IMG/VR virus record: IMGVR_UViG_3300031963_000365
Coordinates: 1 to 39,489 of that record
Direction: 5' to 3' (one strand)
From: a virus
Length of the DNA stretch: 39,489 nt
Made by a program: the position numbers and the translations under genes. Below are positions 2,069-16,166 of this stretch, piece after piece (within the stretch, counting starts at the first letter, position 1; every line of letters begins with the position of its first letter). The notes under the pieces are model-generated. The model had not been told where the DNA came from. It ran no database searches and saw nothing but the letters and a program-made list of their open reading frames with translations.

Positions 2069-2352
2069 GCGCCCTCCTGCGCCTTGCATGATTCTGACTG
2101 TTCCCATTCCCACTCACTCGCGCAGGGACCGTTAAGCGCAGCCCCCTCAAAGAACGCCATTCTCACTACCTCGCGCAGCCGGTCGATCTCCTCGCACAAA
2201 ATCGCCCCCTCTCCGGCGTTCAACGTGCCGCCCTTCCGTGCCCACTTCTCGGCGTTGGCGAGTCTGTCTCCGTATCCGGCGCGGTGATTGCCTCCCGCGC
2301 TCCCGAAGTTGCCATCAGCTTTCGCGTCGGTCGGATCTGGTGTCGCACTCAT
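2065..2352 (-). CDS. Hypothetical early protein
   Basis: 95 residues from ATG 2352, coupled to the stop of the repeat-protein gene (ATGA). The start MSATPDPTDAKADGNFGSAG is disordered. It continues as a helical segment with GAILCEEIDRLREVVRMAF and ends SCKAQEGA. The EEIDRLREVVRMA segment resembles the EIDRLRERLA coil of the next gene, so the two may be related or interact. Function unknown. Confidence 0.65.
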   Translation of the reverse strand: MSATPDPTDAKADGNFGSAGGNHRAGYGDRLANAEKWARKGGTLNAGEGAILCEEIDRLREVVRMAFFEGAALNGPCASEWEWEQSESCKAQEGA

Positions 2353-3143
2353 GCGCTTGCATCCCGCCCCACCGCACACATCCGGCGCACCAAGTCCTGC
2401 GCGGACGCTTGCAGTGTCGTGACGGTGGGCGCGAGTGCATCCCTAGCCGCAGAAACACTTACCGCATCCCTTGCCGCAGCCCTTGCCGCAGCCCATGCCG
2501 CAGCCCATTCCGCAGCCCTTACCGCATCCCTTGCCGCAGCCCCTGCCGCAGCCCTTGCCGCAGCCCCTGCCGCAGCCCATGCCGCAGCCCTTGCCGCAGC
2601 CCCTGCCGCAGCCCATGTCGCAACACTTACCGCAGCCCCTGCCGCAGCCCATGTCGCAGCCCATGCCGCAGCCCATTCCGCAACACTTACCGCAGCCCCT
2701 GCCGCAACACTTGCCGCCGTGATGACCAACTGACTGTCCCGAGCGATAGCAGACGACATGATCGGTGGAAGCGCCCGAAGTGCCGCCGCGTGGGCCTCAA
2801 GCCACGGCGTGAGGTCCAACCACGCCGGAGCATTGACCCTCACCAGCCAGTCCGTCGCCATCCATGCGCGAGTCTCGTCATCGGCATCGGTGGTGCGCGT
2901 TCCGATCACATCAGGCAACAACGGGAGCAGCAGCCGCGCACGATCAGCATCGGGGAGCGCATCATTCCATGATCGCATAAACGCCGCGATCACTGGTGAG
3001 GCACACTGCGGGGCATCGTTCCACGGTTCGCCAGCGAGCCACGCGACCGCTTCCATCGCGCACATCGCCTCGCCTTCGTCATGCTTGCCACGCGCTAACG
3101 TGGTGATCTGTTCCAGCTTGTCGTGCAAAGTATTCGCGCTCAC
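2349..3143 (-). CDS. Ala/Trp-repeat phage protein
   Basis: 264 residues from GTG 3143, which overlaps the upstream stop as GTGA. The N-terminal half (about residues 1-135) is well ordered: MEAVAWLAGEPWNDAPQC, SPVIAAFMRSWNDALPDADR, ARAWMATDWLVRVNAPAWL style segments, then HAAALRALPPI. From about residue 140 to 232 it becomes a tandem AAWAAA/AAGAAARA tract made by a 12-base DNA repeat. I recognise this two-part layout from uncharacterised proteins common in actinophages and related genomes; no function is known to me. All reading frames of the repeat are open, but only this frame joins the conserved N-terminal region. Confidence 0.8.
   Translation of the reverse strand: MSANTLHDKLEQITTLARGKHDEGEAMCAMEAVAWLAGEPWNDAPQCASPVIAAFMRSWNDALPDADRARLLLPLLPDVIGTRTTDADDETRAWMATDWLVRVNAPAWLDLTPWLEAHAAALRALPPIMSSAIARDSQLVITAASVAAGAAVSVAEWAAAWAATWAAAGAAVSVATWAAAGAAARAAAWAAAGAAARAAAGAAARDAVRAAEWAAAWAAARAAARDAVSVSAARDALAPTVTTLQASAQDLVRRMCAVGRDASA
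2448..2722. repeat. 12-base tandem repeat tract within a CDS
   Basis: Many near-perfect copies of a 12-base unit of the type CCGCAGCCCATG, with CTTG, CCTG and ATTC variants at the variable bases. A few CCGCAACACTTA units interrupt the run. On the coding (minus) strand it gives Ala-Ala-Trp/Gly/Arg-Ala repeats. The tract is open in other frames on both strands. Confidence 0.9.
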
Positions 3144-3553
3144 TCTAAGGCTCCCGCGTCGAGGATTTGGGCACAGACGGCGCAGCATAGCGTCCCGTCG
3201 TCGTGCAGTTCGATGAAATACAGGTGATCGGCTGGGGTATGACAGAGGCCACAGCGCCAGCCGTCGCGCTCGCCTACGGTTTCAATGTCGTCCATGCGTT
3301 GCTGCACCGTGGTGTCCCATTGCGCGGGGTCGTCTGGGAGGCCGGGGATCTCGCCCCATATCTCCACCCACTCCTCCTCGGCAGGTTCAAGGCACGGCAC
3401 CGGCAGGGGCACCGCCTCCCGTGCCGGTGGGGACCGCCACTTGGATCTCCACGAGCGCCACTGGGCCGATATCCAGCCGTCCTGCCACAGCACCCACACG
3501 GTCGCGGTCCCAGCCACGGCCACGAGCGCGAGACACAGCGCGAGGAGTTTCAT
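3140..3553 (-). CDS. Membrane-anchored protein with cysteine-pair zinc-site candidate
   Basis: 137 residues from ATG 3553, coupled to the upstream gene (4-base overlap). Residues 1-24 form one hydrophobic segment (MKLLALCLALVAVAGTATVW) fit for a signal anchor. Next come a basic Trp/Arg stretch, an acidic Pro-rich middle, and a C-terminal domain with CGLC and CCAVC about 25 residues apart, which could bind zinc. Small anchored Zn-domain proteins occur in phage early regions without known roles. Possibly host-membrane directed; this is inference. Confidence 0.7.
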   Translation of the reverse strand: MKLLALCLALVAVAGTATVWVLWQDGWISAQWRSWRSKWRSPPAREAVPLPVPCLEPAEEEWVEIWGEIPGLPDDPAQWDTTVQQRMDDIETVGERDGWRCGLCHTPADHLYFIELHDDGTLCCAVCAQILDAGALE

Positions 3554-3813
3554 GTGGCATCGGGGTCGGCGACCATTGCTTCCGCGAACGCTACCGCTGC
3601 CGCGAAGTTGCCCCGAAAGACCGTCGCGGACCCAATGGCGACATCCCCCGGGCGCGGAGCGTCAATGAACACGGCCACGGGGAGGCACGAGCGGGGCAGC
3701 ACCCGCCCGACCGTATGCCGGACGGGGAGGAAGCGCGAGTCACGGACAGAGGACACGATAGCGAGCTGTCCGGACGGGCCACGAACTTCACGGGTGCGGA
3801 TCACGGCGCTCAC
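3550..3813 (-). CDS. Hypothetical early protein
   Basis: 87 residues from GTG 3813, overlapping the upstream stop as GTGA. It reads as a compact beta-rich domain (VSAVIRTREVRGPSGQLAI, LPVAVFIDAPRPGDVAIG) ending in an Ala-rich helix (NFAAAVAFAEAMVADPDAT). A longer reading from an upstream ATG exists, but the GTGA coupling used by its neighbours favours this start. Not recognised. Confidence 0.6.
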   Translation of the reverse strand: MSAVIRTREVRGPSGQLAIVSSVRDSRFLPVRHTVGRVLPRSCLPVAVFIDAPRPGDVAIGSATVFRGNFAAAVAFAEAMVADPDAT

Positions 3814-4016
3814 TGGGCCAGCTCCATGTGCTCGGCGTTGCTGAACAGGGTGGATAACAGCACGGCGTTGAGCCATTGGGCCTCCATATCCTCCTCCTCG
3901 GCCTCGGCCGGCTCGGTTGGCTGGTCATACAACGCGGCGCAACGGTCACACCAGCCGAAACGGTCGGTAGCGGGTTCAACGGCACAGATACAGCAATCGG
4001 CGGCGGTTTTGGACAC
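3810..4016 (-). CDS. Small cysteine-motif protein
   Basis: 68 residues from GTG 4016 with AGAGGA about 10 bases upstream. CCIC near residues 8-11 and WCDRC near 22-26 form a short paired-cysteine motif typical of a minimal zinc-binding domain. An acidic linker (PAEAEEEDMEAQW) and a helix follow. No DNA-binding residues are obvious. It belongs to a group of small paired-Cys proteins here (also 3140-3553, 4065-4340 and 8145-8321). Confidence 0.65.
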   Translation of the reverse strand: MSKTAADCCICAVEPATDRFGWCDRCAALYDQPTEPAEAEEEDMEAQWLNAVLLSTLFSNAEHMELAQ

Positions 4017-4064
4017 TGGCGGGAATCCTCTAGGTATTGGGGTTGGGTTCTTGCGTTTTGCGTA

Positions 4065-4340
4065 TTACTTGGATCGCTCTTGATCCATGTCCATCACCTG
4101 CACCAGCCAGTCGTAAATCGCCATCCCAACGGACGGGGGCGCATTTGTATCACCGCAATACCAGCACACGCACCCCGACTCGCCCGGACATTCCGGTATT
4201 TCTCTCATCTGCCACCGTTGCCAATGGTTTACGGTATCGCAGCTATCGCAGCGGACCTTAATCGAAACGTTCTCCACTCTAGGGGAGAGGACATTGACTA
4301 GCAGTTCGTTGCGCTCGCTGTCGGTTGTGTCTACTGGCAT
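4065..4340 (-). CDS. Small zinc-finger-like protein
   Basis: 91 residues from ATG 4340 (MPVDTTDSERNELLVNVLSP). It carries CDSCDTVNHW, then about 25 residues later CVCWYCGD, a four-cysteine zinc-ribbon arrangement in which the first pair is CxxC and the second CxxC. The C-terminal part is GMAIYDWLVQVMDMD. It lies directly downstream of a leftward promoter at 4388-4415 and shares the CCCAAC...GGAACCCCGCCC leader with other early genes. Function unknown. Confidence 0.7.
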   Translation of the reverse strand: MPVDTTDSERNELLVNVLSPRVENVSIKVRCDSCDTVNHWQRWQMREIPECPGESGCVCWYCGDTNAPPSVGMAIYDWLVQVMDMDQERSK

Positions 4341-4387
4341 GGGCGGGGTTCCTATCGTTGGGGTAGGGTGGCGCGGGAACGTGTACG

Positions 4388-4415
4388 AAAGTAACACGCC
4401 CCGCTGCCTTGTCAA
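4388..4415 (-). promoter_or_regulatory. Leftward sigma70-like promoter
   Basis: Minus strand TTGACA (4410-4415), 16-base spacer, TACTTT (4388-4393), continuing TACTTTCG. It sits between the gene ending at 4426 and the one starting at 4340. The same TACTTTCG follows the TTGACA of the promoter at 4958-4986. Confidence 0.6.
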
Positions 4416-4425
4416 TAGGCTGGCG

Positions 4426-4713
4426 TCACGAATTTTCGCGAGTGATAAAGACAATGCGCGGGGGATTCATATTCGTCGCGAGGCGTTGCGCGAATTGGTC
4501 GGGGTGCGGCTCCCAATCCCAACATTCCGCCCCACCGCCCCGCTGGTCCATGCGGGCGAGTTCGGCGCGAGTGGCGACCGTGATAAATCCGTCATCAGCG
4601 GACCAAACGGGGACATTGTAAAAGCGGGTGGGCTGGTATCTGGCGTCGGCCATCTCGGCTGAGTCCCACCCGAGGGCGGTGGCGGCAATGGTGGCGCGGG
4701 AATAGCGGGGCAC
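4426..4713 (-). CDS. Hypothetical early protein
   Basis: 95 residues from GTG 4713 with AGGAGA 7-8 bases upstream. It starts MPRYSRATIAATALGWDSAE and has an aromatic middle (YQPTRFYNVPVWSADDGFIT) and GAECWDWEPHPDQFAQRLAT. An internal ATG at residue 21 would start the best-ordered part, but the GTG has the better ribosome site. Not recognised. Confidence 0.6.
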   Translation of the reverse strand: MPRYSRATIAATALGWDSAEMADARYQPTRFYNVPVWSADDGFITVATRAELARMDQRGGGAECWDWEPHPDQFAQRLATNMNPPRIVFITRENS

Positions 4714-4744
4714 GGGCGAGTCTCCTGGGTGTGTCTGAGTGGCG

Positions 4745-4921
4745 TTATGACGCTGGCGCGAGTTTCTTGCTCAGGCGGGCAATCTTTTCGTCGCACTCGG
4801 CAATGAGTCCGTTGCACATCATGACCGACAACCCGTGTCCCATGCGGACATACTCGGCGCGAGTCTCTACGATGTTCGCCCTGCGAGCTTCTAGCTTTTC
4901 GATCTTCTGTGCAGTCGTCAT
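4745..4921 (-). CDS. Small coiled-coil early protein
   Basis: 58 residues from ATG 4921 (MTTAQKIEKLEARRANIVET) with GGAG upstream. Almost entirely charged helix (EKLEARRANIVETRAEY, CDEKIARLSKKLA), so probably a coiled coil. It is the first gene downstream of the promoter at 4958-4986. Longer upstream readings lack support. Function unknown. Confidence 0.6.
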   Translation of the reverse strand: MTTAQKIEKLEARRANIVETRAEYVRMGHGLSVMMCNGLIAECDEKIARLSKKLAPAS

Positions 4922-4957
4922 ACCGGCTCCGTGAAAGAGTGAATGGCCTACCACACG

Positions 4958-4986
4958 AAAGTACAACCGGCTATCTAGCTTGTCAA
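4958..4986 (-). promoter_or_regulatory. Leftward sigma70-like promoter
   Basis: Minus strand TTGACA (4981-4986), 17-base spacer, TACTTT (4958-4963) continuing TACTTTCGTG. It lies 37 bases upstream of ATG 4921. The -35 is perfect and the spacing canonical. Confidence 0.65.
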
Positions 4987-5420
4987 TGGCCCAGGGTTAC
5001 GAAACTATTGCCGGCAATGGCGCGGGCGCGAACGGTTCCCCTTGCGCGGGCATTTTGCGCTTGCCCAGGCGCGGGCCATTGGCGCTCGCGTGTCCGTTGC
5101 GTTGGCTGGCGCGGGGACATATCGTTGGCGCGGGTGTCTGACACCGTTACCCTCCGGGCCGTCCACAGCGGCGCGAGAAACAACGGGAAGAAGGCTTGCC
5201 GCGAATACAATCCCCGCACTGCTGGAGAGCAACGGGGCCGGTCACCAATGGCAAGCTGGCGGGACTGGTTCATGCGTACCAGCGGACAGGCGAGGGCGGC
5301 AGCGTGAGAACCTGACCGGGTAGCCCCTCCGGAAACGTAGTCACTGTGCTTGAGTAGGCTCGCCCACGGTTACCCCTTTGGTGACCGGGTAAACTCTCTC
5401 ATGGGCACAGGTGAATAGTT

Positions 5421-5439
5421 CGGGAGCTGTGGACTCCCG
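5421..5439. other. GC-rich hairpin
   Basis: CGGGAG (5421-5426) pairs with CTCCCG (5434-5439) around a 7-base loop. It is paired in tandem with the larger hairpin at 5449-5478. No T-run follows on either strand. Confidence 0.5.
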
Positions 5440-5448
5440 GACATCGCG

Positions 5449-5478
5449 CCCCCCGACCGGCTTAAGGCTGGCGGGGGG
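5449..5478. terminator. Strong GC-rich hairpin, possible terminator after the 5506-5733 gene
   Basis: CCCCCCG-A-CCGGC and GCTGGCGGGGGG pair around TTAAG with one bulge and one mismatch. It lies just past the stop of the leftward gene ending at 5506 and before the next leftward promoter. No clear U-tract follows, so the terminator role is inferred from position. Confidence 0.4.
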
Positions 5479-5505
5479 TTGCGTGTTTCTAGGCGCGGGC
5501 CAGCC

Positions 5506-5733
5506 TTACCGTTCCCACGGCCACGGTTCAGGGCGGGCCACCATCTCCTGTTCACAGTTTAACATCACGCGGCGGCAATGCTCGGGGCCCCCAAATGTGT
5601 CTAACGTCCCAAGTCGTGCCGCTCGGAACCATTGCACGTTTTCTACGCGCCGATATATGTCTTGGTGGCGATCTATAAATCGCGTAAAACTGGCATTTAG
5701 TAAGTATTCTAGGCGCTGCATGGCGGGGGTCAT
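5506..5733 (-). CDS. Hypothetical early protein
   Basis: 75 residues from ATG 5733 (MTPAMQRLEYLLNASFTRFI). Its leader GGAACCCCGCCC is shared with other early genes. Helical and basic-aromatic, with FIDRHQDIYRRVENVQWF, two cysteines not arranged as a metal site, and a Trp/Pro-rich end. Its coding DNA is locally less GC-rich than its neighbours. Not recognised. Confidence 0.6.
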   Translation of the reverse strand: MTPAMQRLEYLLNASFTRFIDRHQDIYRRVENVQWFRAARLGTLDTFGGPEHCRRVMLNCEQEMVARPEPWPWER

Positions 5734-9391: not shown

Positions 9392-9712
9392 ATGGCCCCG
9401 TCCAAGAAGTCGGTCAGTTTCCCGGCGCTGCCCAAGGGCATCATGGCTCCTGGTGGGGATGTCGCGGTCGTTCTGTCGCCCAAGATCAAGCATCCCGATG
9501 GGGACGAGTGCTGGGGCATCTGGGACGAGTCCACGCGGACCATCACGCTCGACAAGACGGCCACCAAGCGGCACCAGTGGCGCGTCCTGTTCCACGAGTT
9601 GTGCCATGTGGCGCTTGATGATGCCGGATTATCAAATGGCATGAACTACGAGCTAGTCGAGGCGGTCTGTGATGCGATCGCCAGCGCCCGGATGCGGGAG
9701 CGGTTCGGCTGA
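9392..9712 (+). CDS. HExxH putative zinc metallopeptidase
   Basis: 106 residues from ATG 9392, one base after the previous stop. The core is RVLFHELCHVALDDAG with HELCH as the HExxH zinc motif at about residues 67-71, followed by an acidic helix ELVEAVCDAIASARM that could give the third ligand. The layout resembles small ImmA/IrrE-like (DUF955-type) phage peptidases without the HTH partner. The start has no clear ribosome site, so coupling with the phosphoesterase gene is likely. Its stop overlaps the terL start (TGATG). Substrate unknown; a repressor or capsid protein is possible. Confidence 0.7.
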   Translation: MAPSKKSVSFPALPKGIMAPGGDVAVVLSPKIKHPDGDECWGIWDESTRTITLDKTATKRHQWRVLFHELCHVALDDAGLSNGMNYELVEAVCDAIASARMRERFG

Positions 9713-11049
9713 TGGCGAGCGCCAAGGGCAAGCACAAGGGCGGGACAGAAACCGTCGTGCGCCTCCACCGCCGTCATCCGGGGCAAGCGGCCATTGCCAC
9801 CCACCCCGCACGGTTCCGCGTGGTCATGTGCGGGCGTCGGTGGGGTAAGTCCGCCTGTGGCATCCGAGAAATCTGCGATGTGGCGCTGGCAGGGAACCCC
9901 GCTGGCTGGTTTGCCCCCAGCTACAAGCTCGCGTTAGAGGCGTGGCGGGAAATCGTGGACCGGCTGGCCCCCGTCACGGCTCGTGTTTCCGAGCAAGACA
10001 AGCGGCTAGAGCTCGTCACGGGCGGCATTATCGAGGTCTGGACGCTCGACACGCCCGATCCGGCCCGTGGGCGTAAATATTCGCTGGTGGTGATCGACGA
10101 GGCGGGGATTGTGCGCGATTTGCTGGAGGTCTGGCAAGCCGCAATCCGTCCGACGCTCGTAGACTTGAAGGGTCGGGCCTTGATTTTGGGGACACCAAAG
10201 GGCCGTCGCCACGGATTTGTGGTCCTATTCAACCGAGGACTGGGCGAAGATGCGGATTGGCAGAGCTTTCGCGCTCCGACACTGGAAAATCCATACATCC
10301 CAGCGGAAGAAGTGGAACTGGCGCGTAAGGAACTTCCCCCAGAGATCTTCGCGCAGGAGTTCGAGGGCGTTCCGACAGATGATGGCGCGAACCCCTTCGG
10401 CTTGGACGCCATCCGACGCAGCATTGCCCCCGACGATGGACAGCCCAAGGCCGAACCCGTCGTCTACGGCGTGGACTTGGCGCGTTCGTTGGACTTCACC
10501 GTCGTCGTTGGCCTCGACGCCTTCCGCCGAGTCGTCACACTAGAGCGGTGGCAAGCGCCGTGGGCGACGACTAAGGACAAGATCCGCCAGATGGTCGGCC
10601 AAACCCCGATTGTGGCGGATGCCACGGGCGTCGGCGATGCGATTGTGGCGGATTTGCAGCAGATGGGGGTGAATGTCAGCCCCCATGTGTTCACCCAGCC
10701 GTCCAAACTGCGTTTGATGCAGCGATTGGTCGCCGCGTTTCAGAGCGATGAGCTAAAACTGCCCGATGGCTGGCTGATTGCCGAGCTAGAAGCGTTTGAG
10801 TTCACCTATACCGCCTCGGGCGTCCGCTATGAAGCGCCCTCTGGCTTCCACGACGACGGCGTGATGGCGTTAGGGCTGGCATTGCACGGGTGGGACCGTG
10901 TGCAAGGCGTTCCGCCAGCAGAGTTTACGCCATTCCCATTGCGCGAACGGGGACGGGACGGTAACGTGGAGGATGGCGAGTCAGGACCGCCACGGTCTTT
11001 GACGGCGGTGGGCAATTTTACGTCACAACTCCCGTCTGACGGGTGGTAA
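9712..11049 (+). CDS. terL: Terminase large subunit
   Basis: 445 residues; ATG overlaps the previous stop. The packaging motor has all ATPase parts: Walker A CGRRWGKS (residues 40-47), Walker B YSLVVIDEAG (D129, E130), and coupling motif LILGTPKG (158-165). The C-terminal RNase H-like nuclease has GVDLARS (D255), VADATGVGD (D303) and GFHDDGVMAL (D381/D382). The length is normal for the family. It converts ATP hydrolysis into DNA translocation through the portal and cuts concatemers. The last 40 residues are a disordered, Pro-rich tail. Confidence 0.97.
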   Translation: MASAKGKHKGGTETVVRLHRRHPGQAAIATHPARFRVVMCGRRWGKSACGIREICDVALAGNPAGWFAPSYKLALEAWREIVDRLAPVTARVSEQDKRLELVTGGIIEVWTLDTPDPARGRKYSLVVIDEAGIVRDLLEVWQAAIRPTLVDLKGRALILGTPKGRRHGFVVLFNRGLGEDADWQSFRAPTLENPYIPAEEVELARKELPPEIFAQEFEGVPTDDGANPFGLDAIRRSIAPDDGQPKAEPVVYGVDLARSLDFTVVVGLDAFRRVVTLERWQAPWATTKDKIRQMVGQTPIVADATGVGDAIVADLQQMGVNVSPHVFTQPSKLRLMQRLVAAFQSDELKLPDGWLIAELEAFEFTYTASGVRYEAPSGFHDDGVMALGLALHGWDRVQGVPPAEFTPFPLRERGRDGNVEDGESGPPRSLTAVGNFTSQLPSDGW

Positions 11050-11060
11050 GAGGAATTCAG

Positions 11061-11429
11061 ATGCCGAAACGTGGAATGGAAGCGGTCGCCAACAAGCAAC
11101 AGGACATGAAGAACAAGCTCGCCGCCAAACTCAAGCGGAAGCCCGTCATGCAGCGCAAGGGCAAAGGCCCCGGCGTAGCGGTGATGATTGCCATTGGGAA
11201 GCCGAAGGGCATGGGTGGCCCGATGGGCGGTCCGATGGGCAAGGGCGAAGACGAGCAGGACGAGAAGATGTCCAAAGCGGACAAGATTGCCGCGCTCGAA
11301 GAAAAGATCGGCTATCTCAAGGCGGAACTCGCGCTGCTCAAGGACGAGTCCGACGAGATGGACGACGAAGACATGAACGAGTCGGAAGACGACTCGGAAG
11401 ACGAAGAAGACGAAGACGAGTACGAGTAA
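11061..11429 (+). CDS. Hypothetical protein with basic head and acidic tail
   Basis: 122 residues from ATG 11061 with AGAGGA about 6 bases upstream. It has three clear parts: a basic N-terminus (NKLAAKLKRKPVMQRKGKG), a Gly/Met-rich linker (GGPMGGPMGKGEDEQDEK), and a coiled coil (ADKIAALEEKIGYLKAELAL) with a very acidic tail (EDDSEDEEDEDEYE). The strong charge split suggests a protein that binds a partner near the terminase or portal, such as a head-assembly factor. No family recognised. Confidence 0.65.
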   Translation: MPKRGMEAVANKQQDMKNKLAAKLKRKPVMQRKGKGPGVAVMIAIGKPKGMGGPMGGPMGKGEDEQDEKMSKADKIAALEEKIGYLKAELALLKDESDEMDDEDMNESEDDSEDEEDEDEYE

Positions 11430-11692
11430 TGCCGAAGTCTCCAGCGTGGCAACGAGCTGAGGGGAAGAACCCCGAGGGTGGCCTGAACGCCAAAGGCCGC
11501 GCCTCGCTTCGCGCTGAGGGCCGAGACATTAAGCCGCCCGTCAAGAAGGAAGCGGCAGCACAGTCGCCCACCAAGGCCAAGCGTCGGGTGGCGTTCTGTC
11601 GGCGCAGTGCTGGTCAGATGAAAATGTGGCCGGAAGCAGCAAAAAACCCAGACAGCCGTTTGAGAAAAGCGAGGCGTCAATGGGACTGCTAA
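11429..11692 (+). CDS. DUF6321-like protein with exchanged C-terminus
   Basis: 87 residues; ATG overlaps the previous stop. It matches the small phage proteins I know as DUF6321: [20 protein letters not shown], then a basic middle, and a C-terminus of the type [19 protein letters not shown] with final WDC. Family members end in one of two alternative C-terminal types. Here one type is in frame and a second copy of the other type (GMKEKLTSAKTANDP ... WDC) survives 400 bases downstream, beyond an HNH gene. The gene therefore appears to have been hit by an insertion that supplied a new 3' end. Function unknown; genes of this kind often lie near packaging genes. Confidence 0.75.
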
Positions 11693-12102
11693 CATGCACT
11701 CGGTGCAAAACGGAAAAACCAGCTACGGTTGAGTTTTTCCCGTTGCACAACAAAAAGAAAAGCGGATTTGATTCGTGGTGCCGAAAGTGCCGCAGTGATT
11801 ACAAGGGACGCAATATGTTTCCCAAAGGCATTACTGACAAGGTTCGGGCAAAAGAAGCTCGTATGCTTGACGAGTGCATAATTTGTGGAGAACCAAAGGG
11901 GAAATCATTTGCGGTAGATCATGACCATAAAACCGGCCACGTTCGCGGTGGTCTTTGTATGAGATGTAACATGGGGCTTGGGCAGTTTCGAGACAATCCA
12001 GAACTGCTTAGGTTTGCAGCGTTATATCTTGAAGGATCATGCGCTTGTGGTGATTGCGATGTGTACTGGGGAGGAAACATTGCTCCAGAGGACATTTCGT
12101 AA
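11680..12102 (+). CDS. Endonuclease VII-type HNH endonuclease
   Basis: 140 residues from ATG 11680 ([20 protein letters not shown]), with GAGG upstream, overlapping the DUF6321-like gene by 13 bases. A first Cys cluster (CTRC, then WCRKC) leads into a recombination-endonuclease-VII-like core: CIICG (C66, C69), [17 protein letters not shown] (D80, H81, D82, H83) and MRCNMGLG (C93, C96, N97). It ends with a further CACGDC. This family includes T4 gp49-like resolvases and many free-standing homing-type nucleases. Its DNA is visibly more AT-rich than its neighbours and it splits a host gene, so a mobile HNH element fits better than a housekeeping resolvase. RusA already provides a resolvase. Confidence 0.88.
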
Positions 12103-12197
12103 TGAAGGGCATGAAGGAGAAGCTGACCAGCGCGAAGACGGCGAACGATCCGAACTCGCGGATCAACAAGTCGCTTCGGGCATGGGACTGTAACTGA
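12102..12197 (+). pseudogene. Displaced original 3' end of the DUF6321-like gene
   Basis: A 31-codon frame reading [20 protein letters not shown], then INKSLRAWDCN and TGA. It matches the alternative C-terminus of DUF6321-like proteins but lies after the HNH gene. Its ATG overlaps the HNH stop (TAATG) and a GAGGA lies about 10 bases upstream, so it could still be translated as a short peptide. Confidence 0.75.
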
Positions 12198-12221
12198 CCA
12201 CGAAGACTGAGGAGGTAGGCG

Positions 12222-12560
12222 ATGTCCGTTGGCAACCAGATGCGCAACAGTGTGACGGTGGCAGCACAGAACGATGCCGCGACACTGGTAGGCTTCCCGT
12301 CGAGCGGGAACGTGTCGGTGCAGATCGCTGGCTCGTTGAGCGCGACGATCACCTTTGAGGCGACCTGCGACAACACGAACTGGGTGGCGCTGCATATGCA
12401 GCCGGTCGGGTCGGCTCCGGCGGCGACGACTGCCGTAACCACGGCGACGGCAGCAGGGATTTGGAACGCCAGCACCCAGGCGTACTCCGGCGTCCGAGCG
12501 CGGTGCAGTGCTTATACGTCCGGCTCGCCCGTCATCACGCTCAAGTATAATGGCGTCTGA
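12222..12560 (+). CDS. Beta-rich virion protein (head decoration or tail-related, putative)
   Basis: 112 residues from ATG 12222 behind a strong GAGGAGG. The sequence is Thr/Ala/Ser-rich and beta-type: NVSVQIAGSLSATITFEATC, DNTNWVALHMQPVGS, and RARCSAYTSGSPVITLKYNG. The VSVQIxGxxSxTITFEAxxDxTNxVAL phrasing is common in small phage structural proteins. Its place between terminase and portal supports a virion role. The specific role is uncertain. Confidence 0.65.
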   Translation: MSVGNQMRNSVTVAAQNDAATLVGFPSSGNVSVQIAGSLSATITFEATCDNTNWVALHMQPVGSAPAATTAVTTATAAGIWNASTQAYSGVRARCSAYTSGSPVITLKYNGV

Positions 12561-12561
12561 T

Positions 12562-12840
12562 ATGTCCCTCCTCGCACACGGAATATGGGCAGCGGTCGTT
12601 CTCGCGTCGGTATCCCGTGTGTGCAAGGTGGCCTTGGCGTTTGCGCCACATCGCGCAACGGCAACGGCGACAGCGTATGATGAGATTGACGTACCAGAAG
12701 ACCTCGTGGCCTACGCGATGCAAGAGCGCGAAGCATGGGCGCAGGAAGAAGTCCTCCGCGCTGTGCGTGAGCGGTTTGAGGAGTTGCGTGACTGGAACAA
12801 GGTCCGCAGCGCCGTAGGCATTGGACGCATTGACGGGTAA
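12562..12840 (+). CDS. Small protein with N-terminal hydrophobic helix
   Basis: 92 residues. It starts MSLLAHGIWAAVVLASVSRV at ATG 12562, one base after the previous stop. An upstream ATG at 12550 would add four residues and overlap the preceding gene. A hydrophobic segment covers about residues 2-30, followed by a highly charged helix (AYAMQEREAWAQEEVLRAVR, ERFEELRDWNKVRSAV). Not recognised; may be a minor virion or membrane protein. Confidence 0.55.
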   Translation: MSLLAHGIWAAVVLASVSRVCKVALAFAPHRATATATAYDEIDVPEDLVAYAMQEREAWAQEEVLRAVRERFEELRDWNKVRSAVGIGRIDG

Positions 12841-12845
12841 GACAC

Positions 12846-15074
12846 ATGACGCTGCCGCTGACGCCAGAGTTAGAAGAAGGGATGAACCTTGAGCAGATGA
12901 TGGTCGATCTGCTAAGTGCGGAAACGCCGCGTGATCCGAACGCGGAAGTCGCACCGAACGCGCCAGAGGATACGGGCGCAACGCCGGACGAAGATCTCTC
13001 CGCGCTCCAGAAGGCGATGTACGGCGCGGACTTCCCCCTTGCCACGCCAGACATGGCGGAGTCGATGCAAGCGTGGGCGTCCTGGTGCCACGGCCTATGG
13101 GTGAGCCGCCGCGAGTCGGTGCAGATGCACTTGCACCTCGTTGAGCGCAACCGCTTGTTCCGCGCTGGGCAGCAGTGGATCTCGGCCTCGGGCCTTGGGC
13201 CGTGGCGTGAACCGGCCCGTCCGCGTGACGCTGCCCGTGTCGTGTACAACATGATCGACAAGGCGCTGGACCAGCGGCTCCAGATCATGATGGATCAGAA
13301 GCCGGGCTTCGCGGTCACGCCCTCGACGCAAGACCCTGACGACAAGCGCAAAGCCACCGCGCAGCAGCTCGCGCTGGAGTACCAGTACGAGCAACAGCAG
13401 ATGCAGCGCATCGGACGCGAAGCCGCGTTCTGGGCGCAGACGGACGGCCTGAGCTTCTGGCATATGTTCTGGGATCCCGACCGTGGCCCGTGGGATGAGC
13501 GCCTTGGCGAGCGGCCCGGTCAGCGCAAGCCGCTGGGCGACATCGGCTGTCAAACGTTGCGCGTGGAGCAGGTGCGGGTCAGCCCGAACGCGACCGCTAC
13601 GCAAGCGCCGTATTGGGTCATCATCCGCGAAGTGATCTCGCGGTCAGAAGCCAGTTTCCGGTATGGCGTGACGGGCTTGGATGCGTCGGACACGATGCAG
13701 TCCCCCGGCAATGCGCCGACCTATTCGGGTGCTGAGGGTATCGGGTCGTGGGTGTTGACGCAAACGACCATAGGCGAAGGCCAACGATTACGGAACGAGG
13801 ATGTGACCGAGCGCCTCACCGTTTACGTTGCGCCCCATCCCGATGCCCTCCCCGAAGGGTTGCAGATGGTGGTGGTGGGCAACAACGTGGTCTTTGGTCC
13901 GTCCCCGTTGCTCTGGGGCGTGATCCCTGTTGTGGCGGTGCGTGATGGGTCCAGTGATCCGTCGTACTATCCGCGCCCCATCATGGAGCAGTGGCTTGAC
14001 CATCAGATGCGCGTCAATGCGCTGCTGTCCAAGTGGGTTGAGAACATTCGCGTGAACGCGGGTGGGCGGTTCCTCACGCGCCCGAACGCGATCTCCACGG
14101 AAACCTTCATGGGTGGCGTGACCTCCATGATCGAAGTCCGTGGCGCAGGACCGATGAGTGATACCATCCAGCCGGTGCAGGGTTTCAGCGTCGGGAACGA
14201 CGTGAAGGAAGCCTTGGCGCTGGAGAAGACGGCGTTTGAGGATGCGTCCGGCTGGAACGCGGTCAGCCGTGGGCAGGTCACTGGCGAATCGGGTCGAGCG
14301 ATCATCGCCAGCCGTGAGCAGTTGGAGCGCGTCTTCTCGCCGCCCATCACGGCCCTGTCGTATGCCTACACCGACTGGTGCAAGGTCACGATGGCTGCGA
14401 TGGCGTGGGGCTATTCTCTACCCCGGTCACTGGGCGCGATTGGGAAGAATCGCCCCGACTTGGCCCGTGCGGTCAGCGCCAGTGACTTCGATGGACAGTC
14501 GGATGTGCGCGTCGAACCGGCGACACTGATGCCGATGCCGATGGCGTTCCGCCTCTACCTGCTAGACAACTGGCTCCAGACGGGCGTGATCGACCTCAAG
14601 GAATACCGTCGTCGCCAGATGTTTGCGATGGCGAAGGACATCGGGACGCCCGACGAAGATCAAGAGGCGCGAGCCAAGCGTGTCGCTGATGCGATCCGCT
14701 CTGGCGAACTCGTGCCCGATATGCGCTGGCAGGACAACGAAGCGATCCACCAAGATGTGTTGGAGCGCGAGATCCTGCTGCAAGACGACTTGTCGCCGGA
14801 GATCATCCAAGCCGCGCAAGAGCGGTGGATGGCCTTGGCGAATCAAGCCACGCAGAAACAGGGAGGGATGCCACCGCAGGGCGGCGCACCCGCCCCTGCT
14901 CCTGCCGGTGTGGGGCCAGCCGCAAGTGTGCCCGCCATTTCCCCCGGACAGATGCCGCTGGCGTCTGGGAACCCCCCAATCGGTGTTGTTGGGATGCTCC
15001 AGCAGCAGTTGACGGGAACCCCAGAAGCGGAACAGGCCGCGCAAGCTGCCGATGCCCTGTCGGGTCAACCCTAA
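12846..15074 (+). CDS. Portal protein
   Basis: 742 residues from ATG 12846. The portal forms the dodecameric ring at the packaging vertex. Evidence is position (between terminase and scaffold), length in the podovirus range, and portal-like stretches: HLVERNRLFRAGQQWISASG, VVYNMIDKALDQRLQIMMDQ, SKWVENIRVNAGGRFLTRPN, and SRGQVTGESGRAIIASREQL in the stem/wing region. The C-terminus is Gln/Pro/Ala-rich (MPPQGGAPAPAPAGVGP), as often seen in portal tails. No other window gene competes for this role. Confidence 0.9.
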   Translation: MTLPLTPELEEGMNLEQMMVDLLSAETPRDPNAEVAPNAPEDTGATPDEDLSALQKAMYGADFPLATPDMAESMQAWASWCHGLWVSRRESVQMHLHLVERNRLFRAGQQWISASGLGPWREPARPRDAARVVYNMIDKALDQRLQIMMDQKPGFAVTPSTQDPDDKRKATAQQLALEYQYEQQQMQRIGREAAFWAQTDGLSFWHMFWDPDRGPWDERLGERPGQRKPLGDIGCQTLRVEQVRVSPNATATQAPYWVIIREVISRSEASFRYGVTGLDASDTMQSPGNAPTYSGAEGIGSWVLTQTTIGEGQRLRNEDVTERLTVYVAPHPDALPEGLQMVVVGNNVVFGPSPLLWGVIPVVAVRDGSSDPSYYPRPIMEQWLDHQMRVNALLSKWVENIRVNAGGRFLTRPNAISTETFMGGVTSMIEVRGAGPMSDTIQPVQGFSVGNDVKEALALEKTAFEDASGWNAVSRGQVTGESGRAIIASREQLERVFSPPITALSYAYTDWCKVTMAAMAWGYSLPRSLGAIGKNRPDLARAVSASDFDGQSDVRVEPATLMPMPMAFRLYLLDNWLQTGVIDLKEYRRRQMFAMAKDIGTPDEDQEARAKRVADAIRSGELVPDMRWQDNEAIHQDVLEREILLQDDLSPEIIQAAQERWMALANQATQKQGGMPPQGGAPAPAPAGVGPAASVPAISPGQMPLASGNPPIGVVGMLQQQLTGTPEAEQAAQAADALSGQP

Positions 15075-15083
15075 GAGGATCTT

Positions 15084-16166
15084 GTGGATATTTCCGAAGC
15101 GATTGCCAGTGCGGTAGACTCTGCGCTGCCTCCCACCACTCCCGACGTAGACGACACGGAAGCCCTCGTGACGGACACGCCGGAAGTGGAGGCGGCACCA
15201 GACATCGACCCCACGACCGACGCAGACGAAGCGGTAACGTCTTCCGACGACGAGACAGCAAACGAAGCAGCCGTCGAACTCCCAGAAGGGTATGTCGCGG
15301 TCCCCGTGGTGAAGGATGCGCTGGCGACCGAGTTCACCCTCAAGGACGCGGAAGGCGAAGTCGAAATCCCCGATCTGGTCGTAGAGTACAAGGCCAACGG
15401 AAAGGTGCGGCAGGACCGGCTTGACCAAGTGGTGAAGCTCGCACAGTGGGGCGTGTACAACGCCGAGCGCGAACAGCAGATCAAGCAGGTGGAACAGCAA
15501 GCGCAACTCACGCAGCAGGAGTTGGAGCAGTACGCGACCGTGTTGCAGGAGCGCGAAGCGCAGATCGAACGACTGCTCACGGACGAAGACTTCTTGTATG
15601 CCGTGCGTGAAGCGTATGAAGTAGAGAACTCGCCGGAGAAACGTGCCGAGCGAGCGATGCGGGAAACAGAAAACTTGCGCGTTCAGTACCAGATGGCCGA
15701 TATTGAACGCAGTGGGGCGCAGTTCTACGAGAGCGAAGTGTCGCCAGCCATCGACATGATTGTGACTGCACTGCCGACAATCGCTCCAGACGAACTGTTA
15801 GAACGGTTTACTTACGCGATGCAAGCGCACGTCGAGGTGGCTCCCAATGGGCAGCCATACATTCCGGCGTCACGTTACGATGCGGTGCGGAAGTACATCG
15901 TGGATGACTTGGCATCATGGGCGCAATTCCAGCATAGCCGTCGTGCCCAGCCCGTTGCGCCTTCGCCCGTACAAGCGAAGGAGAGCAAGGAACTGGAGCG
16001 AGCGCGTGTGGACGCACAGAAGGCCAAGCGGGTGGTCGGTCAGGCCACCAAGCCTATTGGACGCTCTGGCGGAACATCGACAGAGAAGCCACGGGCATCA
16101 CGAATTGCTTCGGTTGACGATGCGGTGTCCAGTGCGCTGGACGAAGTGTTGTCATCCATCCGGTAA
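15084..16166 (+). CDS. Capsid scaffolding protein (putative)
   Basis: 360 residues from GTG 15084 with AAGAGGAT upstream. A long acidic, disordered N-terminus (VDDTEALVTDTPEVEAAPDI) leads into a coiled coil (EREQQIKQVEQQAQLTQQEL, EREAQIERLLTDEDFLYAVR) and a basic, disordered C-terminus (RVVGQATKPIGRSGGTSTEK). This acid-coil-basic pattern immediately before the major capsid gene is typical of phage scaffolds that guide capsid assembly and leave before maturation. Confidence 0.8.
   Translation: MDISEAIASAVDSALPPTTPDVDDTEALVTDTPEVEAAPDIDPTTDADEAVTSSDDETANEAAVELPEGYVAVPVVKDALATEFTLKDAEGEVEIPDLVVEYKANGKVRQDRLDQVVKLAQWGVYNAEREQQIKQVEQQAQLTQQELEQYATVLQEREAQIERLLTDEDFLYAVREAYEVENSPEKRAERAMRETENLRVQYQMADIERSGAQFYESEVSPAIDMIVTALPTIAPDELLERFTYAMQAHVEVAPNGQPYIPASRYDAVRKYIVDDLASWAQFQHSRRAQPVAPSPVQAKESKELERARVDAQKAKRVVGQATKPIGRSGGTSTEKPRASRIASVDDAVSSALDEVLSSIR

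Follow-up and report, generated by a model that had tools for sequence, protein, structure and literature searches.

How can a phage gene keep a complete reading frame when a nuclease gene has been inserted near its 3′ end, and why do two endings of the same protein family lie on either side of that nuclease? The question arises at a DUF6321 locus in the window, by which we mean the whole 39,489-nucleotide stretch of viral DNA analysed here (IMG/VR record IMGVR_UViG_3300031963_000365). A first-pass annotation had proposed that an HNH-type gene was inserted near the 3′ end of the DUF6321 gene and brought a replacement ending with it. This is still the best reading of the locus, and a check of the sequence and open reading frames of the window recovered every feature that had been described, at the positions given. 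The features are the following.

11429..11692, + strand: chimeric DUF6321 gene, with a native 5′ part to ~11606 and a replacement 3′ end (PF19846, E=6e-16)
11606..11692, + strand: replacement 3′ end of DUF6321 (SAGQ...WDC plus stop), the left part of the insert; absent from the relative L220
11607..12101, + strand: inserted mobile unit of 495 bp, from the L220 alignment; ends uncertain by 1 bp (shared A)
11680..12102, + strand: EndoVII/DHHRN-type nuclease gene, 140 aa (PF02945 Endonuclease_7, E=2e-18; phrog_2633 endonuclease VII, E=2e-28)
12102..12197, + strand: displaced native 3′ end of DUF6321, 31 codons (amino acid match to L220 and L223; phrog_727, E=8e-15)
11595..11606, + strand: left half of the predicted cut/recognition region, TCTGTCGGCGCA, proposed from the right junctions of three lineages
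from 12102, + strand: right half of the predicted cut/recognition region, ATGAAGGGCATGAAGG

The insert and its empty counterparts

The nuclease gene had been placed directly after the DUF6321 gene. The two are indeed adjacent, but they do not follow one another: the nuclease ATG lies inside the last DUF6321 codons (TCAATGGGACTGCTAA), and the genes overlap by 13 bp (11680-11692). At the other end, the last A of the nuclease stop TAA is shared with the native ATG of the 31-codon ORF, which is the TAATG overlap already noted. The GC content is 46-48% over the nuclease versus 57-68% in most flanking windows, in agreement with the AT-richer composition attributed to this gene. The match of the 31-codon ORF to PHROG profiles of DUF6321-type phage families covers their C-terminal 30 positions. 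DUF6321 can make up a small protein by itself or form the C-terminus of far longer phage families (phrog_727, 450 positions; phrog_3477, 928 positions), and no mention of it was found in the literature searched.

Close relatives were retrieved by a search with the next downstream gene (12222-12560). In L220, the DUF6321 gene is uninterrupted and reads through in one frame, with near-identical flanks, as had been predicted for relatives of this phage; its protein is the N-terminus of the window protein joined directly to the stranded peptide. Positions 1-2130 of L220 align to 9480-11606 of the window and positions 2130-5585 to 12102-15557, with nothing between. Relative to L220, this is a clean insertion of 495 bp, with zero bases lost and one A shared, and the alignment maps the insertion point, earlier estimated near 11605, to the base (11606/12102). 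The native junction in the L220-type DUF6321 3′ region is TCGGCGC/ATGAAGGGC, and the 5′ part of the window gene shares 98% identity with its uninterrupted counterpart in L220. L223-L225 are likewise empty. Over the terminase gene and the first part of the portal gene, L223 and the window share 97% identity, and the insertion is therefore recent. A DNA search of named phages retrieved no record covering most of the locus.

The uninterrupted genes of L220 and L223 end in exactly the amino acid sequence of the stranded peptide, and the replacement end does not match them. The 31-codon remnant is thus the native C-terminus, left behind as the annotation had supposed, and its reading as an independent conserved gene was rejected since the same peptide ends the uninterrupted gene. 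Both ends are widely found as DUF6321 endings, which excludes the case in which no relative would show them as alternatives of one gene. Carriers and empty alleles were each found in several independent samples, and an assembly artefact (or chance) is therefore excluded.

The nuclease consists of an N-terminal CxxC...CxxC zinc ribbon followed by CIIC-DHDH-R-CMRCN. The EndoVII motif occupies residues 64-118 of 140, in the C-terminal half behind an N-terminal region, which is the arrangement of the endonuclease clade and not of resolvases. It carries the CX2-4C, DHxH, R, CX2CN motif of the DHHRN family, and F-CphI, a proven phage homing endonuclease, is of the same type (PMC6083498). Endonuclease_7 was the only Pfam match, with none to intein-like, LAGLIDADG or GIY-YIG families. 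The zinc ribbon was present in 36/36 nucleases checked and the catalytic motif (CxxC-DHxH-R-CxxCN) was kept in 40/40 distinct nucleases among the matches listed. Both the nuclease and the replacement tail look functional from their conservation: close nuclease pairs have a dN/dS of 0.05-0.15, and the tail is conserved as a protein, under purifying selection in carriers with the same tail type (pN 0.18 versus a saturated pS of 0.78).

Recurrence and movement of the unit

Searching IMG/VR with the nuclease retrieved at least 80 loci, of which L081-L129 are the closest 49 among the matches listed. In these, almost every nuclease starts on the W-x-C-stop of a DUF6321 gene. The unit of replacement end and nuclease was found at the same place with ~40 distinct nuclease genes among the IMG/VR matches listed, and the nuclease start lay exactly 13 bp before the DUF6321 end in 38 of 40 of them. 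Further pairs of carrier and empty alleles, interrupted at the same codon, are L228/L227, L093/L246, L083-L086/L011 and L107/L328, and the left edge was at the same codon in the SAGQ-tail pairs read base by base. On the right, counted from the native ATG, the recipient sequence resumes at −3 in L228, at 0 in the window and at about +5 in L093. All three independent junctions lie inside a stretch of about 8 bp that has no homology to the insert, and their clustering points to a site-specific break.

The window and L228 are 78-92% identical in the surrounding genes but only 73% in the nuclease, while the L228 nuclease is 88-91% identical to those of L087, L093 and L096, whose flanks are only about 73-76% identical. 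The nuclease data reject the window, L228 and L226 as one clade (AU p=5e-6), and the portal data reject the nuclease grouping (AU p=1e-4). Given this significant conflict between nuclease and flank (portal) trees, the unit moves between phages, and this phage group has therefore been invaded at least twice, by different element lineages.

The fate of the displaced end differs among carriers. The window, L088, L090-L092 and L089/L093 retain it whole or almost whole. In L104, L119 and L125, it continues the nuclease C-terminus in frame, and in L096 and L099 only its last few bases are left. In L112, the nuclease is extended by reading the native DUF6321 tail in the wrong frame, and the tail itself can still be read in another (DPNSRINKSLRAWNC). 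No trace of it was detected in L087. Ten of 40 nucleases among the matches listed end in Cys-stop (P=5e-9 at 2% Cys, ignoring relatedness), an excess that fits capture of the native W-x-C-stop.

L107 can be compared with a near-identical empty allele, L328 (flanks 97-98% identical). Its new tail is of the MSGH type, and no native tail is left downstream. Relative to L328, 25 of the 31 positions (stop included) are unchanged in the replaced tail. Of the 22 codons for unchanged residues at which a silent difference was possible, 13 are recoded. A cut-resistant version of one and the same ending would be expected to have this appearance.

A homing model and its alternatives

We consider it likely that the locus holds a homing element composed of a replacement 3′ end of its target gene, putatively cleavage-resistant, and a nuclease gene. 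The nuclease would cut DUF6321 genes with the common MKGM-type ending, at or next to the point where codon 59 meets the ATG of MKGMK. The break would be repaired from a carrier genome, presumably by a double-strand-break repair route, so that the alternative ending and the nuclease gene are copied in together. The new ending would keep DUF6321 readable and remove the cut site, pushing the old ending downstream. As happens when introns or inteins home, the predicted cut site would then be split, with one part in the left flank and the other in the stranded end. Ribosomes probably re-initiate at the overlapping ATG and yield small amounts of nuclease, a mode of expression also proposed for T4 seg/mob genes, whose overlaps are 11-24 bp (PMC2988022).

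The association of nucleases with particular endings was counted in loci deduplicated by 200 bp around the gene end; since retrieval was biased by the query and relatedness was ignored, the counts describe an association and do not estimate frequencies. Among the loci in these query-biased matches listed, an EndoVII gene adjoins 0/153 MKGM endings, 19/52 SAGQ endings, 17/71 MPG endings and 4/5 MSGH endings. Its absence beside MKGM endings is suggestive that the replacement end may confer resistance. An apparent case of an MKGM ending with a nuclease, L051, was rejected as a false motif match, and in L064 the EndoVII gene lies further downstream without overlapping the DUF6321 stop. Alternative endings without an EndoVII nuclease were found at 33 SAGQ and 54 MPG loci among the matches listed, so these endings exist independently of the nuclease or outlive it.

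A possible extra role of the stranded end is an addition to homing with a replacement end: it may still be translated as a short peptide, or serve as a right-hand homology arm for the next homing event. The copy in the window encodes the exact native peptide, the end is intact and ATG-initiated in three lineages, and the FBA1 fragments of yeast WHO elements have been proposed as homology (PMC7282813). Nevertheless, several carriers within the same nuclease clade (L087, L095-L100) retain a decayed copy or none, related elements differ in their right junction, leaving no fixed inherited arm, and the insertion in the window may be too young for decay to show. Such a role is possible but rather unlikely, and the stranded end appears dispensable because it is eroded or lost in other carriers.

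Ordinary allele replacement would need no active nuclease: a block of SAGQ tail and nuclease would have recombined through homology in the 5′ part of DUF6321, with an illegitimate crossover on the right, and the nuclease would be a passenger. Phage genomes recombine freely, alternative tails also occur without the nuclease, and the complete loss of the native tail in L107 relative to L328 resembles a plain double crossover. What this account leaves unexplained is the placing of three independent right junctions within about 8 bp, where there is no homology to the insert, together with the strict absence of the nuclease beside MKGM endings and the retention of the catalytic motif in all 40 distinct nucleases among the matches listed. 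We therefore regard it as improbable. A self-splicing intron with an HNH ORF, whose 495 bp would be removed from the RNA so that the MKGM ending is still used, was rejected as scarcely credible: exact removal would restore the uninterrupted frame, but a comparison of 11000-12700 with Rfam gave no match up to E<=5, and hence no group I/II catalytic RNA core, nearly all of the insert is coding sequence, its first 86 bp are a tail under purifying selection that leaves no room for an intron core, and the supposed second exon is lost or scrambled in other carriers. An intein was rejected because DUF6321 stops at 11692, inside the insert, and the nuclease is in another frame.

Other genes were also observed at the 3′ end of DUF6321. 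The SAGQ endings of L260, L266, L268 and L274 adjoin a nuclease of another type, again with its start at −13; in L260, this protein has matches to NUMOD4 and HNH_3. The site seems to attract unrelated homing nucleases. In L003/L270 and L168, small CxCxCG...SCGxCG zinc-ribbon-like proteins, with only sub-threshold Pfam zinc-ribbon matches, start over the DUF6321 stop and may be nuclease-less relics of other homing genes. Directly 3′ of DUF6321, L012/L292 encode a candidate HNH-like VDHxDN protein and L348 a candidate GIY-YIG-like protein, both recognised by eye and with weak or absent Pfam matches.

A broader reading can be offered tentatively. The 3′ end of DUF6321 might be a standing homing hotspot at which unrelated nucleases (EndoVII, NUMOD4-HNH_3) repeatedly pair with recoded, cut-resistant endings, and the SAGQ, MPG and MSGH endings would be the "rescue" components, live or ghost, of natural homing-and-rescue drives. 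If this were true, selfish genes would have shaped the C-terminal diversity of the DUF6321 protein.

Comparison with known systems

No phage or virus precedent for a nuclease with a replacement 3′ end was found in the searchable literature, which covers few subscription papers. The closest parallels are eukaryotic. The WHO elements of Torulaspora and Lachancea yeasts target FBA1, and their unit is a nuclease with a resistance-conferring 3′ end upstream (Coughlan et al. 2020, PMC7282813). In both systems, the nuclease lies downstream of the target gene, the foreign 3′ end lies upstream of the nuclease and the old 3′ end is left downstream as a fragment. Both have repeatedly invaded one locus, and the WHO nuclease cuts alleles without the element, as we propose for the phage enzyme. 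However, WHO nucleases are intein-like with zinc fingers, their hosts are eukaryotic and the FBA1 fragments are about 400 bp, whereas the window unit has a 140-aa EndoVII-type enzyme, a phage target, and a replacement tail of <30 codons within which the nuclease start codon lies.

Fungal mitochondrial mORFs with C-terminal replacement are known from Allomyces atp6 and from Glomus atp6, atp9, cox2 and nad3 (PMC3630166). They show the same order of inserted C-terminus, nuclease and displaced native C-terminus, and their native end is likewise closest to that of sister species while the inserted end is foreign. They differ in their mitochondrial setting and LAGLIDADG or GIY-YIG enzymes, and for mORFs hybrid transcripts were detected by RT-PCR. 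With WHO and mORF-type elements, the window unit shares a foreign 3′ end upstream and a native 3′ end downstream of the nuclease, polymorphic empty alleles and horizontal spread. As its nuclease matches Endonuclease_7 only, and no intein-like, LAGLIDADG or GIY-YIG family, the unit is analogous to these elements and not a member by descent.

Among phage systems, F-CphI of cyanophage S-PM2 is likewise a small protein whose C-terminal half holds the EndoVII motif, and it has a homing role (PMC6083498), a role that is putative in the window. F-CphI, however, is a neighbour of psbA, and an intron blocks it (collaborative homing), whereas the window nuclease interrupts a gene and brings a coding replacement. 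The free-standing seg/mob endonucleases of T4 also lack an intron and overlap the end of the upstream gene, by 11-24 bp, but their cut sites lie hundreds to thousands of bp away from where they are inserted, and the in-gene insertions (mobE in Aeh1 nrdA, mobA in gene 60) split the protein and do not replace its end (PMC2988022). The ShiLan insertion, with its out-of-frame HNH in phage methylases, is similarly a non-intron, non-intein nuclease insertion in a tolerant phage gene (PMC11855218). It is read through in the host frame, unlike the window, where the host gene terminates on the replacement end inside the insert.

Homing by a nuclease plus a replacement 3′ end, known from yeast and fungal mitochondria, would be extended to phages, in a unit of 495 bp. 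The locus also suggests that selfish elements maintain the alternative C-termini of this widespread, uncharacterised phage protein. The matched empty and occupied alleles are ready material in a fast system, and the unit is a natural counterpart of engineered home-and-rescue gene drives.
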